NCBI GenBank assembly: GCA_010093605.1
Contig: MU004183.1
Location: forward strand, 124,001 to 188,000
From: Lophium mytilinum
Taxonomy: Eukaryota > Ascomycota > Dothideomycetes > Mytilinidiales > Mytilinidiaceae
Length of the DNA stretch: 64,000 bases
Reading direction: 5' to 3'
Below, piece after piece: positions 10,135-47,770 of this stretch (the stretch's first letter is position 1; each line of letters starts with the position of its first letter). The notes under the pieces are model-generated. The model was given only the letters and a program-made list of their open reading frames with translations. It was not told the origin of the DNA and made no database searches. The position numbers were made by a program, and so were the translations under genes.

Positions 10135-13100
10135 TTACATATGTGAGCGATCCACGCCATTTCCCCTTGAAGTTTCCTCTGTCATGTCCTTGACAGTTCG
10201 GTCTAACACGATAATACGTGCGCCTTGTTGTATGAGGAAGTTGACTAGTGCCTTGTGTCCATTGCGAGCTGCCAGGTGTATAGCCGTACCCTTTTCAACC
10301 GTAATTGTGCCATAATGACGAGATGATGTTTCAGATGCTTCGTCGGATTGGTAGTTAATTTCCGGTGAATCGACGTACTCCCGCCCTCTAGGGTGTCTGT
10401 GATTTTGAATCTCGATATACTCCATATCAAGATTAGCTCCGTGCTCCAGCAACGCCTGTACTATTGCAACGTGCCCGCTGGCTGCTGCTAAATGAAATGC
10501 TGTCTGTGATATGCGATATGATGTGATCAAGGCATTGCCTTCATCTGCGGGATCCCACTCAACATCTTCGAACTCGCCCATGGCAATGCCGGTCCCGAGC
10601 GCTAGAAGAACCCGAACAACATGAATATCGCCATCCTTGCAGGCTTGACGAAGTAAGGACTCATTGGTCAAGCCTTGTTGGAAGTCATGCTCTATTGTCT
10701 TTTCGGCATCATTTTCTGATGACGGTGCGAGCTGTTGGATAGGAGACGCGCCATCCGCAGCAAACAGCTTCAGCAGCTTCTCATGCCCTTTTTTGGCTGC
10801 GTGCCAAAGTAATTTTCTCATAACCTCGTTTTTCAAACTATCATATGAGCTTTTTTTCTCGAAAAGTATTTTGACTACGGCCTCGTGCCCCTCATTGAAT
10901 GCAGCCTCTATCGGTGTTTTGCGATAACCACCAGCTCGGCTAAAGGGGTCTACAACGTCGTTGGCAAGCAGCAAGCTCACAACTCCTGTATGGCCCCATT
11001 TTGCGGCAACCGATAGTGCGAGCGAGTGTATCAATGAGCCCCTTGCAAGCAGCAAGCTCACAACTCCTTCGTAGCCTTGTGCTGCGGCACACAACAGTGG
11101 GGTCTGTCCGGATCTGTCGGGCGAGTCTGGCGGTATGCCTTCTGCAAGCAGCAAGCTCACAACTCCCTCGTGGCCATTGGATGCGGCTAACAACAGTGGG
11201 GTCTGGCCGGATCCATCAGGCGAGTCTAGCGGTATGCCTTATGCAAGCAGTAAGCTTACAATCGCCTCGTGGCTGAGTCCTGCGGCATACGCTAGTGGAC
11301 TTGTACCATCGAAATCGAGGGCGTCTGGTGGTGAGCCTTTTGCAAGCAGAGCGGCCGTAATACTCTCTAAGCCAAAATGTACGGCAAGATGCAACGCTAG
11401 AGATACCTGCTGCCATGTACCTCTGTGGCGGTGGAGAGGATCAGTCCTTTGTTGCCACAAATTTGTAACGTTGGGTTCCTTTTCAAGAAAATCAAGAATG
11501 AACGGATCGACGTCTTCTGATGCTGCACGAATAGCGTGATGACCCCAATGCTCGTCTGCATATCTAAAGAGAGGGAACAGCAGGTCGCGTGCGAGCGAAT
11601 TCGGGAACGTTGAAAAGGAGTCCGATCCGAAAATATTGAATGATAAATAAGTAACGCAAGTCACTGTAATGTCTTTTTCTGCGTTTGGAAGGATAGATTT
11701 GCGTTTGAAGTATTCTTCGGTCGTCTTATGAACTAATTGAACAGTTCTACTGACAGTGTCCACTCGAACCAGTCCGGCGCATATTGAACCGAGGGTTTCG
11801 ACTTCGGGAAGGAAGTCTTCGTCTGGGTCAGTCATGCCCGGACAAACAGCCATGGCATGTTGTAGTTCCCCGACGGAGAGCACCCTCTGCGCATGGCTAA
11901 GCCAAGTCAGGACGTTCATGGTAAGCCTCCGGGAATCTTCTGGCTGCCTATCAATCCTCTCTACTGCTTTGTCGTACGTCTTATCTAGGCCTTTTTGTCC
12001 GCGAGGTAGATCGGCGAGAGCTCGCTTGATATGTCCCACGGTGGGCTGGGTGATGAGGGAGTCCATGTGCAATCGAGCAAGAAGGAACCTAAAATTTTCG
12101 AGTTAAGACGGTTCGTAACGCATAACTTGACAGATCAGAAGGACCCTACATTCCGTCAACGCTGTTCAAAATTTCGTTCCTAATCTTCTCTTGGATTTGC
12201 GGGTGCTTGGAGATCTGTGTCCGCAAGAGCAGGGGCATCCGACCGTTGATATAATGGAGAATATCATCATCATGAGCGCGGATCTCTTTGAATGCACAGC
12301 CTTCAAACCGCGAAGTGATATCAGCCTCAAAGCGAGATGTCGCGAAGAGGCTGACCTGGATTTCAGTTTGAAGCTGGAATAGTTCTGATAAAAGCTTCCA
12401 AATTGCTTCCTTATTGGCAGCGTAGTTTTCGTCTTTGTCTGGTCCATTTGTAGTCGCTACACGATACTCATCTAAGGCGTCGATGACAATGAACACTTTG
12501 CTGTGCAGCTTGAGTGTCGCTCGCAATGCTTTCACGACCTCGTCGAGAGGCGGTGATTTATGTTTAAATTGCTTGTGGAGCTCTTTTAACGCGTCGGGTA
12601 GTACTGGTCTCCCTTGAGCTAGCTGCCTTAAAAGGCTTGAGAGAATGGCCAAAGGTGTCTGTTCGTGTTGCGACTGATAATTGCAGAAAACATAGGCGAT
12701 CCCAACACTTGGGTCGTCGCGAAATCTCATCGTGAGATAATCCACAACAATCGCAGACATCATAGTCTTTCCCGCTCCAGGCATCCCGGGGCAAAATAGT
12801 GTTTGTTCGTTTTGGTCGACCCAGCTGCGAAACTCATCGGACTGCAACAGCCATAGCCCGGTCTCTCCCTGGCGTCTAGCGATTATTTCATTCTGCTGGG
12901 GGCCAAAATCCATAGGAGTGAGCCAATCAAGCATTTCTTGACGCTCTCTGTCGTCCTGGCGTTGATGTAGCCTGTCGACGCCGTCTTTGGTTGCTAGTGT
13001 GACTTGCCTGATAAAAGGCAATCTTAGCTTGAGACACTAGATATAGGAGATGGCGCGTACCCATAGAGTTTCCTATGGAACGCATCCAAGAGATTGACAT

Positions 13101-21001: not shown

Positions 21002-21957
21002 GCTGGGAGCCAATCAGGCAGACAACGATAGAGATGATGGACGAATATGCTGGTAACACATCTCTCTTATATCCTAGGTAGCGATCACAGCTTGACTTAG
21101 GTTTCCTGGGGACCCCACACACGAGCACCACCCCATTTCAAATCTCATAGAAGTATACCTTCCGCCTCCGCAATTAATGACTGCCGATTCTCGCGTGTGC
21201 CACGTGAAGCGGCCCGGCATCGAGCAATGAAGCTATCAACAAGGATTTGGTGCGGAGAACTGGAATAACCCTACGAGACGAATTCCGCCAATCAAGAATT
21301 CTCCGCGGAATAGGCTTTCGGGAGCAGGTGACGATCCCCGGACCCCAGGGAGTCTATTTCGTGACTCGAGCCTCAGAAGGAGCGGGCCGACATCTACTTC
21401 GAGTTAGCCGTTGTAAAGAGACCTCGGTATCAAGCTGGGAAAAGCTCGCATGGCGTATACATTTATGACTGAGGAAGAGGGTCTAGTGTGTTTGTCGTAT
21501 ATGTCGAAAGATGGTATAAGGAAGTTAGAGGTGCGATTCTACGTCACTTCACCACCCTATATCGTCGCACGCCTGGCTTCTCGAGTGTGGCCATCTTGTA
21601 CAAATCAAGAAACGAAAGGAAGAATAAAAGAAGAAAACGCCGAACTCCAACCCTAGAAGGAGAAAGCTAAGATGTTGAAAATAGAGATCACTTCGTTGCC
21701 GGCATGCCCGTGATGGAGACTGGTCAGAATCTACAACATGGCTAATCCCGTACAACTCCTCGGTGCGGAATCAATCCTCCCTCGAGTACCCACGGGGGAT
21801 CATAGTCCAGCTAGTCCCCTATAGGCCGTGACCCAAGTGAAAGTTCCGCAAGATGCTATACTTCAAGTAACACAAGAACTGTATCGGTACATCAAGAAAG
21901 CGGGTTTACAAAAAGCCGACCAGCTCATGGTTGAAAACTAGCCTATCAGAAGTCTGC
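21002..21957. other. Intergenic region, GH53 promoter side
   Basis: No gene was recognised. A TATA-like TATAAGAG on the minus strand (about 21064-21071) lies ~65 bp upstream of the GH53 start codon and may be its TATA box. The frames at 21247-21670 are short and without recognisable motifs. Confidence 0.4.
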
Positions 21958-30440: not shown

Positions 30441-31364
30441 GGTGATGTAGGCGTATGTGAAAGGGGCGGTGGGTAGGTCAGAGACGACGTAAGCTCACGA
30501 GACCGGAGGGGGAGCGTGTCGCGGGAGGACTGAGAATTAAAGGAACTAGAAGAGCTTTCTTATGGTGAGAGAAGCCGGCAAAGAAGGTCGAATTAGAGTT
30601 ATGGAAAAGGAGTGTTGCGTTGAAGTCGTGGGTGATGCAGACGAGATCCCCAGAGGATTTTCAGATGTGAGGCGCAGGGGCGGCAGGGTACGAGGCTAGC
30701 GGAGCACCACACGGGCACGACGCGCAAGGGGCAACGAGGCGGAAAAGGAGGCTTCTGAATGTATTGTTTAGGTTGCTGGGCGGTGTGAAATGGAGAGAAG
30801 GGTGCAGGTTTGTGGTAATTGGGATTACTGCTGTTCAATTATTGCTGGTTGGTGATAGAGCTCTTTCGTTGAATCCACCTGCACACGTCGCCTCCCAGTT
30901 ATGCCAGGATTCAACTCGCCAAGAGATCCGGGGATTCTAGCCTGCTCTGCCTGGCCGGTTTGGCCGGTTTGGTGTGCCCGTTGATGCTTGCAGACACCTT
31001 TACCAGTGTTTTAGAGTTACACCAAAGGATTTTGGAGACTTCAAAAGTCACTATAGCATTATACTATCATGGGACTGACATACACCTTCTTTCAGATGAA
31101 ATAGGAAGCAGATTCGCCCAATTCTTCATGATGTATACTCGATAGGGCACTCCAAGCCGCATTCAGATCGTTTCGGTCACGTGAAGTCGCTGTCCGCTCG
31201 GACTTTCCGTCCCATCTTATCCCGCGCACAAGCCCACAACAACAAACACTCCCAGCTTCATAACAACGCCCACCACCCCGTCGCATCAAGACTGCCTCTC
31301 TTACCACCAGGCGCATGCTTCCCCGTCGCCTACCCTCTTCGAGTCATCCTGAATAACCCTCCCA
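30441..31364. promoter_or_regulatory. Divergent upstream region of GDT1-like and telobox genes
   Basis: This 924-bp region lies between two divergent start codons. It is C/A-rich near the right end (31200-31360), as expected for the telobox gene leader. No telomeric repeat is present here; the TTAGGG run is inside the telobox gene's first intron instead. Confidence 0.45.
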
Positions 31365-34278
31365 ATGGCCGACCGCAGGGCCGTCCGGGCATCAAGCCGG
31401 CGCAATACACCCACTCCACAACCTCCTTCGAAAGCGAATACCCCCACCGCTGCGCGCACCTCGACTCGCAATGCGACCAGAGCCACGAGAAGCCAGAGCC
31501 ACGAAGTCGAAACCCCCGCTGTTGCTCCAGCGCCCGCGACAAAGAATACTCGTAGAGGTGCCCGTCAAGCCAGCACCGAGAGTGTAGGGAGCACGGACAG
31601 TCGCGCTAGCCGGACGATTCGAGGTCTTAAAAAGCAACAGAAGAAAGTTCGGGCTCCGCCTGATAGAGGTGAGTGATCATTGCCTTCTCTCAGAGGTCAA
31701 AAACCGAGGGCTTCCTGAACCCATTCACTCTTTGTTCTCAGCGCCTCTCCGAAACTTGCACCTAGGGTTAGGGTTAGGGTTAGGGTTAGGGTTGTTCCAC
31801 TCCCTGCCATCAAAGCGTTCTAGTTGCGCATGTCTAAATATCTCTGCGCACCTCATTTCTACACCTCATTTCTAGAATACCTATTCAGACAACAGCCATC
31901 TCACTATTTGCTTGTATCAACCACACGCAGGAGCTGACAGACGCCGTGAACACAGATCTCACAACAGTCGAAGAAGACGAAGACGCGGAGCATGTTGTGG
32001 ATGTGATACCTGAACAAGAGGCACCCGGGACACCTCCGTTGCAAGATCAGATAAGCCAGCCACTTCCTCATCGGTCCCCCGGGGGATTCTCCAACATCTC
32101 AGGCACTACGGCGTACTCGTCTGCTTCAACAGCCGAGGCACAAGATCTAGAAGCAGGCATGATGCTGGCAGACCTGGAAGATCTCTACAACAACGCCGAG
32201 AGTTTCCTCAATGTGATGGCTCCCAAGGATGCTCGGACTCGCGATTTTGAGAAAGTTCTAAAGGACATGCGGATCCCTGGCTCGACGACAAGCAAAAGTT
32301 TCCTCAAGAGGAGCAAAGGGTTTAATGATTTCGTTGAAGCATTCAAAGGTGAAGACCGACATTATATTCTTCCACGAGCCGTGTCAAAGACCCTTTTCGG
32401 CTCACAGCAAGACTTGAACACCATACCTGGACGTCCGGATGCAGTTCTATACAAGGCCAATCTGGCGGTGCTCGCAAGGCGGCTTCTCACCGACCGTGGA
32501 ATTGAGGCAATCTGGAAAGACGTCCAGCAACTAGATCTCAGCTTCCCTGAACTCTTTCTATCTCGATTTAGTGACGAACTAAACGAGCGTGGCGACACGA
32601 GTACCCTTCTCGAGCAGACTTTCAAAGTGGCTTTGGAGATCCGTACTCAAGTAGCCATACTCGACCTTGCCCAAGAAGTGGATATGAGCGAGAGCTTTGA
32701 CCCGGACCGGGTACTCCAGACCGTATTCTTGAAAGGCTCGCTTTCAGACCAAGAGGATCAGGATTATCCCCCGTTTGTTCGTGGATGGAACGTGGGCGCA
32801 TTGGGTGCTGGCCTAGCCGAAATACCACAACCCTTCAAAGACGCCGTAGTCAGACGGATGGAGGAAATCCGGGCGTTTTTTGACCCAAACAGTCCTGCTG
32901 TTGATATCGATCCCCTTCGAGCCAAATATTCTTGGGACTCATTTTGTGTGCGTGTGCTTCAGTGGGTGCGTGACCGCAACCAGGAGATTGAAGCCTCCAT
33001 AGCTCATATCGGGATCAAGGGCCTGAAGAATCAGGTCGAAAGAAGTGTCAAGTCGGTCAATCCTGGTGCTGCTCCAGCTGAGATCACCGAAACTCCACGC
33101 GGGCCACGGATATCGAACATCTCAGCCCAGTCGAAAAAGTCGAGGAGGTCTTCCAGGGTTCATTTTACCAATCCTGACGCGTATGATTTTCTTCTCCGTG
33201 GGCCACAGGCCGAGAAACAGGCAAAGTCTAGGGAAACTGCTCTGAATCAGAAGACCGCGCCTACGGCACTAGGAGTAGATCAAGAGATCATCGAGGACGA
33301 TTGGCAAGCGGCTCCCATCGACGACGAGGAGCCGGAAGACCCACAAGAAGAGTCATCTACATCCCGCTTTCCACCTTCCACAAACGATCGGGTGGCGCGT
33401 CTTGCCCATGAAGAGCAGATACAGAAGGAGAACCAAAAGCAACGCTTCATCGACCCCCAGGCCAACCCAGAGCGTGTTACATTCGATGACGATATTGAGG
33501 CTACCCAGCCTACTCCGCGACCAAGCAGGAAGAGCAAAGGCAAGGCTCCCATCCGTGCCTCTACGACTTCTCCTGGACGTCCCTCTACCGTCGCTCCCAG
33601 GGCTCAAAAGAGAACCTACGCACAAACCGTCCAAGAGGATTCCGACGACGACGACGACGTTTTCCAACAAGACACCCGCCAACCTGACGTCTCCAAACGT
33701 CGCAAGGCCGGCCCCACAGCCAGTCGCCTCCGCTTCGAAGAGCCCATTGAAGTCCCTCCGAGCCATCAGCCCCAGCGGCGCTTCCCCGAAAACCGCAGCC
33801 GCAGCCGCAGCGTCCCAGTCCGCCCTGCCTCTGAAGACAGCGACTTCGAAAACGAAAACGAGGACGCTGCTCCGGTGTCTTCCAACTACCGACAAGTCCA
33901 GCAACAGGTGAAGCGCATGGCGCCTGCCTTCCCAGCCCGCCAGCAGCAGCGGCGCGCGCGAAACCCATGGACAGCGCGCGCGGAGGACCAGCTAGTGCAG
34001 TATATCGAGGAGTACGGGTGTCAGTGGGCTTATATCAGGAGGCTGGATGAGGCGGATACGCAGATGTTTCTGGATCGGACGGATGTAGATTTGAAGGATA
34101 AGGCAAGAAACATGAAGATTAATTATCTGAGGTCAGTGTACATCTACAGTCTTACTGGAGTGTGAGATGGGGATGCTAATTAGGAAACAGGTCCGGCACG
34201 GGTCTCCCGGAGAATTTCGACGGGATCACGATCTCGCAGTCTCTGGCGCGGCGGTATGGTCTAGTTGAGGATGCTTGA
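31365..34278 (+). CDS. Telobox (Myb) telomere-repeat-binding protein, TRF/Taz1-like
   Basis: Exons 31365-31668, 31941-34131 and 34191-34278 encode 860 residues. The N-terminus (1-101) is basic and Ser/Thr/Arg-rich. Residues ~175-450 are a helical region consistent with a TRF-homology dimerisation domain. A charged disordered linker follows. Residues ~775-835 form a C-terminal Myb/SANT domain (RNPWTARAEDQLVQYIEEYG) carrying the telobox signature VDLKDKARNMK. This layout is that of TRF1/TRF2 and fission-yeast Taz1, which bind duplex TTAGGG as dimers and control telomere length and protection in the nucleus. The first intron (272 nt, GTGAGT...TGACAG) is unusually long for this window and contains five telomeric repeats. 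The second is 59 nt, and its splicing extends the Myb domain by 28 residues. Assignment rests on the telobox and layout, not on a search. Confidence 0.85.
31763..31793 (+). repeat. Interstitial telomeric repeat, five TTAGGG units, in intron 1 of the telobox gene
   Basis: Five perfect TAGGGT hexamers followed by T run from 31763 to 31793. They lie 94 nt after the donor and about 150 nt before the acceptor of intron 1 of the telobox gene. This is the exact duplex repeat that TRF-type Myb domains bind, with enough length for a dimer. Flanks are ordinary intron sequence, so this is not a chromosome end. Confidence 0.95.
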
Positions 34279-36104
34279 AGGGCGACTGGGACTTGTCTGG
34301 GTTTTTAGGCGTTATTATCGAGCTGATGTTGGGTGGCGTGGATGGTGGGCTGGTACTTGGGTGGGGAATTGTGATTTATTGATACCCTGTGGGCTCCTAT
34401 AAGTGGATTTCGGCGTTCCGACTTTTCTATATACTCAGTTCGTTGTATGAGACCTCGTTCAACTACTTCAGACGTTTGGCTTCTGCATCTTCTGCTTTAA
34501 TTAGTCGACTTTGTCTCGCTTGTAGGCTACAAGTTCTCTGCGTTTTCCCCCTTCTCCATATCTCTCTGCTAGTCATGTCGTTTGATCACCTGCTTTCCTC
34601 CCCGTTCTCCACTAATGCGCATCGCGACGAATGACTCACCGGGCATCTACGTGCAAACAAACAACTACAGCCTGTACACTGCGTTGTCACCCTTTTTGTT
34701 AAATTCGTTTCTACGCGGTCAGATCTGTAACTCTTTCTACTGTTTCCACTATTCCTAACCGATCAGGCCTACCCTCTGAGGGCACCCGACTTCGTAGTCA
34801 CATCACCTACTTTCACTGCAAGTCTTCACAGTTTCAACCGCGTAGAACGGATGTTAGGAGACGCAGCGTAGCACACTTTGTAGTACGCTTCGTGCTTCTC
34901 TTCCCAGCAGGACGATCTCTTCTACGTGGTCAGATTTGTAACTCATGAAACTCTTTTTAGCCGCGGAGGCCTGCCCTCCCGGGGTGACCCTTTCCCTAGT
35001 CACATCACCCCTTTTAAGTGCAAGTCCTTACAGATCCAACCGCGTGCAACACTTTTCATGAGCCTCAACGGGCCTATGCTTCGTGAGCCTCTTCGTAGCA
35101 AGACTATCTCTCCCACGCGGTTAGATCTGTAACTCTTTCCACTCTATCTAGCCGCAGAGGCCTATCCTCCTAGAATGGCCCCTTTCCTAGTCATATCACC
35201 CCCTTTTATTGCAAGTTTTCACAGATCGAACCGCGCAGAATAGGATTTGTAAGAGGCGACGTGCCTACGCTCCACACCCCTCTTCAAAGCAAGATTATCT
35301 CTTCGGCGCAGTGAGAACTGTAACTCTTTCTACTTTTACTAGCCGTGGAGGTCTACCCTCCAAGGCTGACCCACTTCAGTTACATCATCCGGCTTAACTG
35401 TAAGTCCTTACAGAATCAACCGCGTGAAAGAATCTTATTAGAAACGGCGTGCACGACGTAGGACGCTTTGTGCTCCTCTCCATGCTCCTCTTTATACTGG
35501 GACTACGGGGGTTAGTATCAGTCAGAGTAGAAAGACGTCAACGAGCCCCCACTTCATCGACCTGCCTGCGGTTCATTTAGAGCTGCATAAAGTGGAGCCG
35601 GTCCGTACGATTCGCGGTCGTTTTTGGCATACTATGGGAAGAAAGTAAGAATTAGGCTAGGATTGAAGGGATTCGATAGACGTCCTGAATTAGGAGGTGG
35701 ATATGAAGTAAAGTTGCTACTGTTAAGATGTAAGAAGTGGAGCTAGTCCTAACCCTGATTCTTAGAGGCTGGTTCACAACGTCCAGCCATAACATGGCAA
35801 GAAGGTGTGTAGATCGCACCAACTGGCTTCTGTTAGCACATCCATAGTGCTGGATTGACGGATTCCCGTAGTCTGATTCGCGGTGGCGTAGACGTCCCAA
35901 ATTCTACGACCTAATATTGCTAAAACGTTCCCCTGGTGATTTGCCTAGTCTGACTTCAGAATCTAACCCGTTCACACGCCTCACTACTACAGAACTTCTC
36001 CTCTCTTCCCACTCGTATAATCCCCTCAACAGCACTCATCAACTTCACTGATACCAAAAGGACTCTGTAATACTCAGCTTATCCAATTCAAATTTATCTA
36101 CTAT
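34279..36104. other. Convergent intergenic region between telobox gene and ATG22
   Basis: No gene was recognised. Family 2 array units fill about 34708-35510 (listed separately). From 35560 to 35930 there is a weak direct repetition (AAGTGGAGCCGGTCC near 35590 and AAGTGGAGCTAGTCC near 35735; TAGACGTCCTGAATT and TAGACGTCCCAAATT), which suggests another, older duplicated unit. Confidence 0.45.
34708..35510 (+). repeat. Repeat family 2 array: four ~195-bp units with inverted ends
   Basis: Units start near 34708, 34921, 35112 and 35302. Each opens with ACGCGGTTAGATCTGTAACTC or a close variant. About 115-140 bp later it carries the reverse complement form (CTTACAGATCCAACCGCGT), then a 60-80-bp spacer. 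Between the ends are AGCCGCRGAGGCCTACCCTC and TAGTCACATCACCCC boxes. The inverted ends make each unit resemble a MITE that has been amplified in tandem with its spacer. There is no coding capacity. The array begins about 430 bp after the telobox gene stop codon. Confidence 0.8.
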
Positions 36105-42900: not shown

Positions 42901-43650
42901 CTGCGCGTGCAGCACGACAAGCACGTGTGGCACATCCAGGACTCGGCGGCGACGAACCCGGATCCGCGCGCGAAAGCGGCGCCGAGGTCGGAGCAGCTGA
43001 CGGAGGCGTTGAAGAAGCTGTGGCGCGAGGACGGGGCCGGTGGTGAGAGTGGCGGGGGCGAGGATGGTGGTGGGGAGAGGGGGTGGATGGGCGTGCGGAT
43101 GGGGATTGTGGCGTCGATCGAGGGGGTGGCGGCGGCGGTGGTGAGGTTGGATGCGGTGGTCAGGGCGTGTGCGACTGAGGGTGGGGGGGATGTGGTCCCT
43201 GTTCCTGCGCAGGAGGTGGTGGTGAATCGGAACTCGAATCAGGGTCAGACAGCGCCGAATGCGAATCAGACAGCGCCGTCGGCTGTGGGGCTGGGGATTT
43301 CGAATGCGAGCGCGGGTGCGGTGAGGCCGGATGCGGCGGCGGCGGCGGCGGCGAGAGCGAGGTTGGAGGCGAATAAGGAGGCGGCGAATAAGATTCTGGC
43401 GCATAATCAGAACTTGAACCAGAATCGGGAGCAGAAGCAGGCGCCGAGGAAAAATGGAGGGCAAGTGGGAGGTGGGATGGTGGGAGGCGGGATGGTTGGC
43501 GGTGGGATGGGTGGAGGTGGTGGGCCTGGTGGTGGGCAGGGTGTTAATGGCAACAACCGCCAGAACCCAAATCAAAACGGCCATGGCAGAGGCGGCGGCG
43601 GTGGCATCGGCGGTGGTGGTGGTGGGCCCGATATCATCACGATCGACTGA
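39954..43650 (+). CDS. MED14: Mediator complex subunit 14 (Rgr1)
   Basis: Two exons (39954-40682, 40732-43650; 49-nt intron ending TGCTGTAG) encode 1,215 residues. The conserved N-terminal MED14 region is clear: IPASLLDLPPEIIHITNSDA, FAEYHRTRFVKLLVLSAWSR, VQRLIDVSGWLRGEMGSYYA, and after the intron MGYIPPEPLSPQEILKLWRD and VRCSLRLNLHEELPRHLKQW. MED14 is the scaffold joining the head, middle and tail of Mediator and is needed for RNA polymerase II transcription. The last ~65 residues are a Gly/Asn/Gln low-complexity tail with short GGGMVGGGM repeats. ATG 39954 is the first in frame; ATG 39972 is an alternative. The long opposite-strand frame at 42094-43584 is a composition shadow. Confidence 0.93.
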
Positions 43651-45097: not shown

Positions 45098-47770
45098 TCA
45101 CCAAACCGTCATTTTGCGCTTCTTGAGCTTCGGGTTCTTCTGCGGCACCGCATATTCCACATAGTCCACGCTTTTCTGCCGCCTCTCCGCCGACGCCCGG
45201 CCGCCCTCGGACCATTCCCCGTCCTCGCTCTCCTCTGCCATTGTCCCTCTAATCTCAACCTTGCCGCGCCGCGCCGCCATCCGCGCCCGCTCTGCCGCCT
45301 GGACCTCCTCCCGCTCGCGCGCTGTGAGCGGCGGATTCTCAAATTGCTTCTTGAACGCTTGGTAGGTGGGGTCGGTGAAGATCTTATGCTCCTTCCACGA
45401 GTTGATGGTTTCGGCGATAGCGGCTTTCCAGCGCTGTGCGCGCAGCTTGCCCCAGCCGAGGTCGCGGTCGAGGCGGCCGAGGTGCGCGAAGACCTTGCTG
45501 CTTTTGAGCTTTTCCTCGATGAGCGACGGGTAGACCCAGGAGTTAAGGTGAACGGGGTTGGCGTAGTTGCTGCTGGCGAGGCAGAGGTCGAGTATGAGAG
45601 TCAGGCCAATTCGCTTCGCGGAGGACACGTCGATAGGCTCGGTGGGTTGGTTCACTGGGGACGGCGCATCCATAGGGTATTGCTTGACTTGACCGGGCTC
45701 GGAGCTGGGGTTGTCAGTGTTGGTTGGTAGCGGTTCGGTGGAGCGTGAGTGGGCTTCTGTTGTTGCCTTTGGGTTTGTGTTGGCGGCGCTGAAGCAGAAG
45801 GGCTTCTCCACGTTCAGGATGAGCATGTCGACGATTTCTTCCTTGCCGCGCTTGACGTGCTTGAGGGCGAAGCCGGTCACACGCGCGACATCGCCGTTGC
45901 GAAGCTTGGTGATCTCGGTCGGAAGACGGGCCAGCAGCCATGTAAATTCTGCTTTCGCGAGCGGTTCGAGCCAGTCGCGCTCGGGGTGGAGATGGTCTTC
46001 GGGTGGCGGGCCTTTTCCTTTATTGAAGCTTCGGCGGCGGCCATCTTCATCATCTTCGCTGTCGAGTTCAGACTCGTGGAATTCGGGATCGTGCTTGAAT
46101 TCCGAAATGTCGGTGACGAACTCGAATTTCAGAACGTCCTTGGGTGCCACCCACGACGGTCCATCATTGTAGATTGCCTGGATACTGCTCTCAACGGAAC
46201 GTCGTCGGAGATAGGGATCAGACGGGCGGCGAAGGCGAGCGTGCAGCTCCCAAAGGCGATATCGGTACCATACGCCCCCAACACTCCTAGCATCCCAGAT
46301 CCAGGCCCACTTCTCTTGCTTCTGTACATCCGAATGTGACATCAGTAGAGCCTCAAACTCAACACCGTGTGTAAGCACATTCTCAACCGTCTCGTGGATG
46401 AGTCTAATTTGCTGCAGGTCGGTTGGGGGAGTGACCTTCACCTCTACTTTTGAGAAATCTTGGCTGTTTCTCCTCGAAGTATTTTGATAGTTCGGCTGTC
46501 CATCTCCACGGCTTACATTTTGGTGCAGTGCGCCGTGAGGGCCTCCACGTCCGCCTCGGGAGCCTCCTCCACGATTATTGTCATAGCCTGATCCACGGTT
46601 GTCGTTGTAGCCTTGTCCTTGATTGTCGTGATTTCCTCCGCGATTGTCGCCGTAGCTTCCGCCACGATTGCCGTGATTCCCTCCGCGATTGTCGCCGTGG
46701 CTTCCGCCACGATTGCCGTGACTCCCTCCGCGATTGTCGTTGTATCCTGGCCCGCGGTTGTTGCTGTATCCTGACTCGCGGTTGTCGCCATAGCCTCCTC
46801 CGCGGTTGTCGCCGTAGCCTCCTCCACGATTGCCGCCGTAATCCCCTCCACGATAGCCGCCGTTTCCCTTTCCAGGGTGCTTGATCACAGCTCCGAAGGG
46901 ATATAGTGATTTAGCATCGTTTGCAACGTCTGGACCATCGAGCGTCTTGCGGGAAGCACGTATGTAGTGTCCCCAGCCCACATACTTTCCGTTGAGAGCT
47001 CGTGCAATGTTGTCGAGTTCATTTGTTGACGTTCCACGAGCCATTCGCACCTCAGCAAACTTGGTCTTGCGTTTTCCGGGGGTTGGATTCGGATTAATCG
47101 GCACAATGAGAGAAATGTCTTCGGTTTCATGTTCCTTAGGCACTAGTTTGTCGATCGTGTCCGTGAGCATCTTGTTTTCCATGTCGTGCGGTATGTTCCA
47201 GACGCTAATCACCGGTTTGGGCTCGTTTGGATCAGGCTCGGAGTAATCGCTATTGCCCTCCGAATCGTAAACCTTCACTTTCTGCTTGTCACTTCGCGAT
47301 TGCGCCTTGGAATTGTCCGAAGATTGCCATGAAGCATCTCTTAAGCCATTTCGCGACATTGGCTCCGAACTGGCTGATTTGCCCTTCTTGTTCGACTCGT
47401 AGAAGCTCAAGACATCATCTTCTTCGTCAGTATGTTGCCTCTTTCGCGGCGGCCGTAGCGACTGCGTTGGCGGTGGCGGCGGGTCTGGCGGTCTGCTGAT
47501 TTTGGACGAACCCCGGCCGTAGTGTTTCGGTGCCATTGACTGACGCAGAAACCCCCCGTTGCCGAATCCGGCTTCAATTGTCGGTAGAGGAACGTCCTCA
47601 GCGGCCACTCCATGGTCTTCCTGGAACATCTTGAGAACCTCTGCGGTCTCTGCTTCATCGCGGCGGCGTTTCGCCTCGGCCTCCTCTTTGTTGCGTTCGA
47701 AAGCTGTTTTCCTGACGGGTGCGGAGAGCTTGTTCCTGATGTGGTCAGGGACGTCGTCGCGGTCTAACAT
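45098..47770 (-). CDS. U2 snRNP-associated SURP-motif splicing factor (U2SURP/SR140-like)
   Basis: A single exon encodes 890 residues from ATG 47770 ([20 protein letters not shown]). The domain order fits U2SURP/SR140: a charged N-terminus, an RRM at ~187-280 ([39 protein letters not shown]), a SURP module at ~450-505 ([24 protein letters not shown]-like segment, [10 protein letters not shown]), and a CID-type helical domain at ~590-790 ([20 protein letters not shown]). Between RRM and SURP is a ~110-residue Gly/Asn/Arg repeat insert. The protein should act with U2 snRNP in pre-mRNA branch-site recognition. The gene is intact and intronless in the coding part. Confidence 0.85.
46530..46860 (-). 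repeat. Coding tandem repeat: GGxYGDNRG-type units in the U2SURP-like gene
   Basis: About a dozen 24-33-bp units encode variants of Gly-Gly-(Tyr/His/Ser)-Gly-Asp-Asn-Arg-Gly. Several neighbouring units are nearly identical in DNA (CGCGATTGTCGCCGTAGC on the plus strand and close variants), pointing to recent slippage. RGG-like repeats of this kind bind RNA and promote condensates in other proteins; that is an inference here. Length polymorphism between strains is likely. Confidence 0.8.

Follow-up and report, generated by a model that had tools for sequence, protein, structure and literature searches.

In this study we describe a perfect, 31-nt run of telomeric repeats, TAGGG(TTAGGG)4TT at positions 31763-31793, which under our preferred gene model lies within the first intron of a gene that appears to encode a telobox protein of the TBF1 type. 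We propose, tentatively and at a little under even chances, that the run acts as a cis site through which the gene's own protein exerts a regulatory effect. All positions are those of the window, by which we mean the whole 64-kb stretch of Lophium mytilinum DNA that was analysed.

Sequence, rarity and register of the telomeric run

The run is on the sense (+) strand of the telobox gene, has zero mismatches and is reported by Tandem Repeats Finder as 5.2 copies of a period of 6 at 100% match. An earlier note on this DNA had placed five perfect TTAGGG units at 31763-31793, and this is borne out in the TAGGGT register, in which five perfect units span 31763-31792; the literal hexamer TTAGGG is found four times, at 31768, 31774, 31780 and 31786. 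The longer motif TTAGGGTTAGGG has three overlapping occurrences in the window, all inside the run, while in 100 dinucleotide shuffles it averaged 0.01 occurrences with a maximum of one, and TAGGGT runs reached at most two units in another set of 200 shuffles. No two adjacent copies of TTAGGG are present in the window outside the run, which is also the window's only perfect repeat with a 4-8 nt unit to reach 20 nt; among perfect simple repeats of at least 20 nt, a 21-nt GCG run is the only other one, and imperfect short-period repeats are also present (e.g. at 43465-43520). The run lies more than 31 kb from both ends of the window and, by its head-to-tail units away from a chromosome end, has the form of a short interstitial telomeric repeat. 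A chromosome-fusion scar was rejected as an origin, since all units point in the same direction with no head-to-head junction.

For the motif background, the six rotations of the telomeric hexamer were counted with 31741-31800 masked, and compared with values expected from models of order 4 and order 2 (given here in that order). TTAGGG (5 seen vs 9.9 and 17.1 expected) and GTTAGG (8 vs 14.8 and 17.1) fell below expectation, GGGTTA (23 vs 15.6 and 14.5) was above it, and the remaining rotations were TAGGGT (17 vs 13.8 and 19.3), AGGGTT (31 vs 29.3 and 26.6) and GGTTAG (20 vs 16.2 and 17.6). A generally telomere-motif-rich region was therefore rejected, the picture being mixed rather than simply poor, and the lack of a general excess among the six rotations indicates that the run is not explained by motif background. 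On the minus strand, one AGGGTTA (31354-31360) sits 4 nt before the ATG of the telobox gene; it may be meaningless because this 7-mer is common in the window, with about 9 occurrences outside the run.

The match of the run to TRF-type sites is likewise directly supported. The site of human TRF1 and TRF2 is given as YTAGGGTTR (PMC8305976), and positions 31762-31794 form five overlapping sites of this kind when one flanking base is counted on each side, a C immediately preceding the run and a G immediately following completing the first and the last; one fitting base at either end is by itself weak evidence. Elsewhere in the 64 kb, YTAGGGTTR is found as two single sites, at 21648 and 58582, both on the minus strand, and we count the five overlapping sites vs these two in favour of self-binding. 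Palindromes of the Candida albicans type with gaps of 0-12 nt are absent from the window, and the clustered TTAGGG by which Tbf1 auto-regulation is recognized is found here at a telobox protein's own gene.

Gene model and encoded protein

The gene starts with an ATG at 31365 and its frame is open up to a GTGAGT donor at 31669, defining an exon 1 of 304 nt (31365-31668, + strand; 101 codons and one base) that is basic and of low complexity. Among the acceptor AGs tested, seven keep the long second ORF open (31895, 31940, 31955, 31967, 31973, 31976 and 31982), and with the donor at 31669 the run is intronic under every one of them. Fungal introns follow a branch-point rule, and the interval 31669-32000 contains one CTRAY motif only, CTGAC at 31934-31938. 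We prefer the acceptor at 31955 because the adenine of this sole motif leaves 18 nt to 31955 and 3 nt to 31940. Intron 1 is accordingly modelled at 31669-31955 (+ strand, 287 nt). For the 272-nt intron proposed before (31669-31940), the donor stands, whereas the end is doubtful, falling 3 nt past the only CTRAY adenine. On the same strand, exon 2 (31956-34131) encodes the middle region together with the greater part of the Myb domain, intron 2 (34132-34190) is 59 nt long and of the form GTCAGT...ACAG, and exon 3 (34191-34278) supplies the C-terminus and a stop codon beginning at 34276, for a modelled protein of 855 aa.

Codon scores identify the frame of exon 2 clearly (0.216 vs -0.187 and -0.241), and support that of exon 1 weakly (0.103 in its own frame vs 0.099 and 0.02 in the other two same-strand frames). 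Since they do not single out the exon 1 frame, the case for exon 1 depends on an open frame and a good donor. None of the three sense frames of intron 1 scores as coding, and the exon 2 frame is visible from about 31905, the scores making no decision between 31895 and 31955. Were exon 1 not real, the run might instead sit upstream of a shorter gene, a placement nearer to the yeast promoter precedent discussed below. The run was also considered as coding sequence; an acceptor at 31741 would read it as an in-frame Leu-Gly repeat, and this candidate was rejected as the frame meets a stop. The nine GT dinucleotides in 31742-31880 are poor donors, and four of them are GTTAGG inside the run.

Intron 1 contains, in addition to the run, a perfect 13-bp tandem duplication (31849-31874, + strand), a sign of freely changing sequence, as in free drift. 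Its predicted RNA fold is ordinary (z +1.2), with 182 of 200 shuffles folding equally well or better. In a search for snoRNAs and other known RNAs, no match to any Rfam family attained the gathering score anywhere in the window. Permissive scanning of 31000-32100 gave one match, to the archaeal RNA sR2 (E 1.5), which was rejected as lying on the opposite strand and outside the intron.

The single Myb domain at the C-terminus of the protein bears the telobox motif VDLKDKARNMK, and the part of it that exon 2 encodes spans 33944-34129 (+ strand). The domain matches Pfam PF00249 at 25.9 bits when searched alone, vs a cut-off of 24.4, and at 19.7 bits, below that cut-off, within the longer ORF. A PDB sequence search (E up to 1) returned 17 matches, the best of which was TBF1 (8x6d, E 9.2e-7), followed by the general Myb protein MYB21 (E 2.4e-6); chains of trf1, which we take to be from S. 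pombe, matched weakly (E 0.019 and 0.033) amid plant telomere-binding and Myb proteins. LKDKARN is common to the candidate protein, TBF1 and a 'telomeric DNA-binding factor trf1' chain, and the plant chain 2aje has LKDKWKT. The motif, the Pfam match and the TBF1 match together confirm the C-terminal telobox Myb that had been claimed, and its Tbf1 type, with TBF1 as the best PDB match, is a further point counted for self-binding. We would change the label 'Taz1-like', as the likeness to TBF1 and trf1 favours Tbf1; Taz1 chains are absent from the 17 matches, which would tell against a Taz1 type only if the PDB includes a Taz1 Myb.

A search of residues 160-460 for a TRFH matched no Pfam family at E up to 10. 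The AlphaFold model of the middle region is helical with a mean pLDDT of 38.8, too low to inform on fold, and a model of the 72-residue Myb shows three helices at low confidence (mean pLDDT 52.5); the quality of both was too poor for searching by fold. From its sequence, we call the protein a TBF1-type telobox protein with a putative TRFH, and predict that it probably binds the run. Relatives of the 739-aa ORF were absent from the viral contigs scanned, as were relatives of the 72-aa Myb from the prokaryote contigs scanned, as expected because the gene is fungal. The genes of the window and the style of their introns point to a filamentous ascomycete.

Several other features of the window are recorded here in their own right. 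Downstream of the telobox gene, 34700-35445 holds four diverged tandem units of ~190-210 bp with inverted arms ACGCGGTNAGATCTGTAACTC ... TTACAGATNNAACCGCGT, which might represent fold-back elements or an array of structured RNAs; their consensus fold has 22 pairs, only one of which is changed on both sides, giving no covariation support, and the array has no Rfam match. Minus-strand ORFs at 10135-13021 encode NACHT/NPHP3_N, GPIID_WHD and ankyrin repeats; they resemble fragments of a single NLR-like fungal gene, and a 99-bp tandem repeat occupies 11044-11273. Repeats of 21-45 bp are also found at 46621-46863, inside a long ORF of the minus strand that includes a Surp module.

Self-binding and competing explanations

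In the mechanism that we propose, the TBF1/TRF-type protein, probably with partners, would bind the head-to-tail sites in intron 1 of its own gene, ~400 nt downstream of the ATG, and would thereby lower productive output, either by hindering early elongation or via local chromatin. Synthesis would fall when free protein is abundant, and rise when telomeres soak the protein up. A table for C. fulvum, covering assembled ends only and in another species, gives 5 to 32 telomere units per end (PMC9453070), or 314 units over 28 ends by our own addition; because these ends are so short, five internal units would be comparable to one short chromosome end, which lends telomere-linked titration some weight. 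The earlier note had suggested that the protein may bind its own gene and tune its transcription or intron 1 splicing, with repression by protein released from shortening telomeres. The self-binding part gains support from the precedent of S. cerevisiae Tbf1, and beyond it we infer the intronic placement of binding, its negative sign and a link to telomere shortening and length, along with the binding of TTAGGG by the gene product and its occurrence in vivo. Counted against self-binding are the TRFH search without a match, the weakly supported frame of exon 1 and the 13-bp duplication in the same intron.

The foremost competing explanation is a neutral accident, in which telomerase-type or slippage-type break repair would have left the run in a long intron free of constraint, with the choice of this gene coincidental and any binding possibly inconsequential. 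Short interstitial telomeric repeats arise by break repair, and the run is perfect, as expected of a recent insertion; intron 1 is long in comparison with intron 2 (59 nt), contains a further small tandem duplication and has an ordinary RNA fold, and a new intronic feedback site has a low prior. Chance placement in this gene, in contrast, would have a probability of ~7e-5 per run (~3 kb of a genome that we assume to be ~40 Mb), rising to ~1.5e-3 if some twenty telomere genes, a number also assumed, would be equally striking. We place an accidental origin somewhat short of even chances, and in our judgement it and regulatory self-binding are about equally likely. Even if accidental, the run would still be a clean natural example of a telomere repeat that is transcribed as part of an intron and may be bound by the product of its host gene.

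A more specific and unlikely version of events would make intron 1 a gauge of telomere length, in a fungus whose telomeres are very short and whose duplex telomere protein is split between the ends of chromosomes and a mock telomere of five units within its own gene; protein freed from shortening ends would then turn its own synthesis down through this intron. How the amount of a telomere protein is matched to the amount of telomere is, to our knowledge, not settled, and a natural mock telomere in the gene of a duplex-repeat protein would make this question directly testable with one small edit.

We regard as quite improbable a switch at the RNA level, in which the UUAGGG run, possibly as a G-quadruplex, would be read by a Gbp2-like or hnRNP-like RRM protein that alters splicing, with retention of the intron or splicing into the run yielding a short, dead-end reading frame. 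The segment GGGTTAGGGTTAGGGTTAGGGTTAGGG at 31765-31791 does match a G-quadruplex pattern, but so do other segments, for a total of nine in the window. Retention of intron 1 would stop the frame after 103 aa and splicing to AGs within the run would stop it at 129-137 aa, and Neurospora Gbp2 is reported to bind single-stranded TTAGGG (PMC4650311); a frame shift is, however, expected from any retained intron of such length, and the acceptors within the run lack polypyrimidine or branch-point support. The nine GT dinucleotides in 31742-31880 are poor donors, and four of them are GTTAGG inside the run.

Slightly less probable still is a site for another TTAGGG-binding factor, Tay1/Teb1-like or zinc-finger, rather than for the gene's own product: Neurospora is reported to have six or more proteins that bind duplex TTAGGG, of which five were tested and one was inferred (PMC4650311), and the run contains the two repeats AGGGTTAGGGTT that S. 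pombe Teb1 needs (PMC4839565), but adjacent TTAGGG pairs are confined to this one place in the window, and the site is intronic under the preferred model, not upstream.

Comparison with known systems

In the titles and abstract openings of the literature matches listed, no report describes a Tbf1/TRF gene with a telomere repeat in one of its introns. The closest precedent for self-binding is S. cerevisiae Tbf1, which is reported to bind its own promoter and to recognize TTAGGG clusters however the copies are spaced or oriented (PMC2834713). The two systems are alike in combining a telobox protein of the Tbf1 type with a TTAGGG cluster at the gene that encodes it, where auto-regulation in yeast is probable; they differ in that the yeast site is a promoter, with binding shown by ChIP, whereas here it is a modelled intron with one perfect tandem run, known from sequence alone. 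This difference of promoter and intron is counted against self-binding, as is C. albicans Tbf1, which according to the same source does not bind its own promoter and requires a palindrome (PMC2834713).

The intronic setting has its nearest counterpart in a yeast URA3 intron carrying 25-60 telomeric repeats, in which TTAGGG in a transcribed intron was bound by Tbf1 and mature mRNA was lower (PMC9272169). Unlike the present gene, that construct was engineered, with 25 to 60 repeats, in an unrelated gene; its effect was observed with 25 repeats or more and was smaller when they lay in the G orientation, as the run does here, and we count both points against our proposal. Taken together, the binding of Tbf1 to its own promoter and the drop in mRNA from the yeast intron make self-regulation plausible, and the precedents do the same for self-binding and damping, short of showing either for five repeats.

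Human TRF2 is described as acting via an interstitial repeat at hTERT, and the balance between telomeres and other sites has been proposed to set hTERT output (PMC6410037). There too, an internal telomere repeat links the amount of a telomere protein to a telomere gene, although the target is telomerase, reached by looping with the chromosome end, and not the protein's own gene. Among fungal proteins, Tbf1, Tbf2 and Tay1 of Neurospora, whose telomeres are TTAGGG, are reported to be enriched on TTAGGG DNA, with duplex-repeat binding shown for Tbf2 and Tay1 and inferred for Tbf1 (PMC4650311), and the TRF-type Trf2 of U. maydis is reported as essential and as protecting telomeres (PMC7744550, PMC7952879). 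Telomere-like repeats also serve as a transcription site away from telomeres in S. pombe, where Teb1 is bound to the HisBox of histone promoters (PMC4839565), a system that differs in its two repeats, its histone promoters and its double-Myb protein. Finally, the run resembles short interstitial telomeric sequences at large in consisting of a short series of TTAGGG units, ordered head-to-tail and lying away from a chromosome end (PMC6410037), and is unlike them in lying inside a gene whose product probably binds it.
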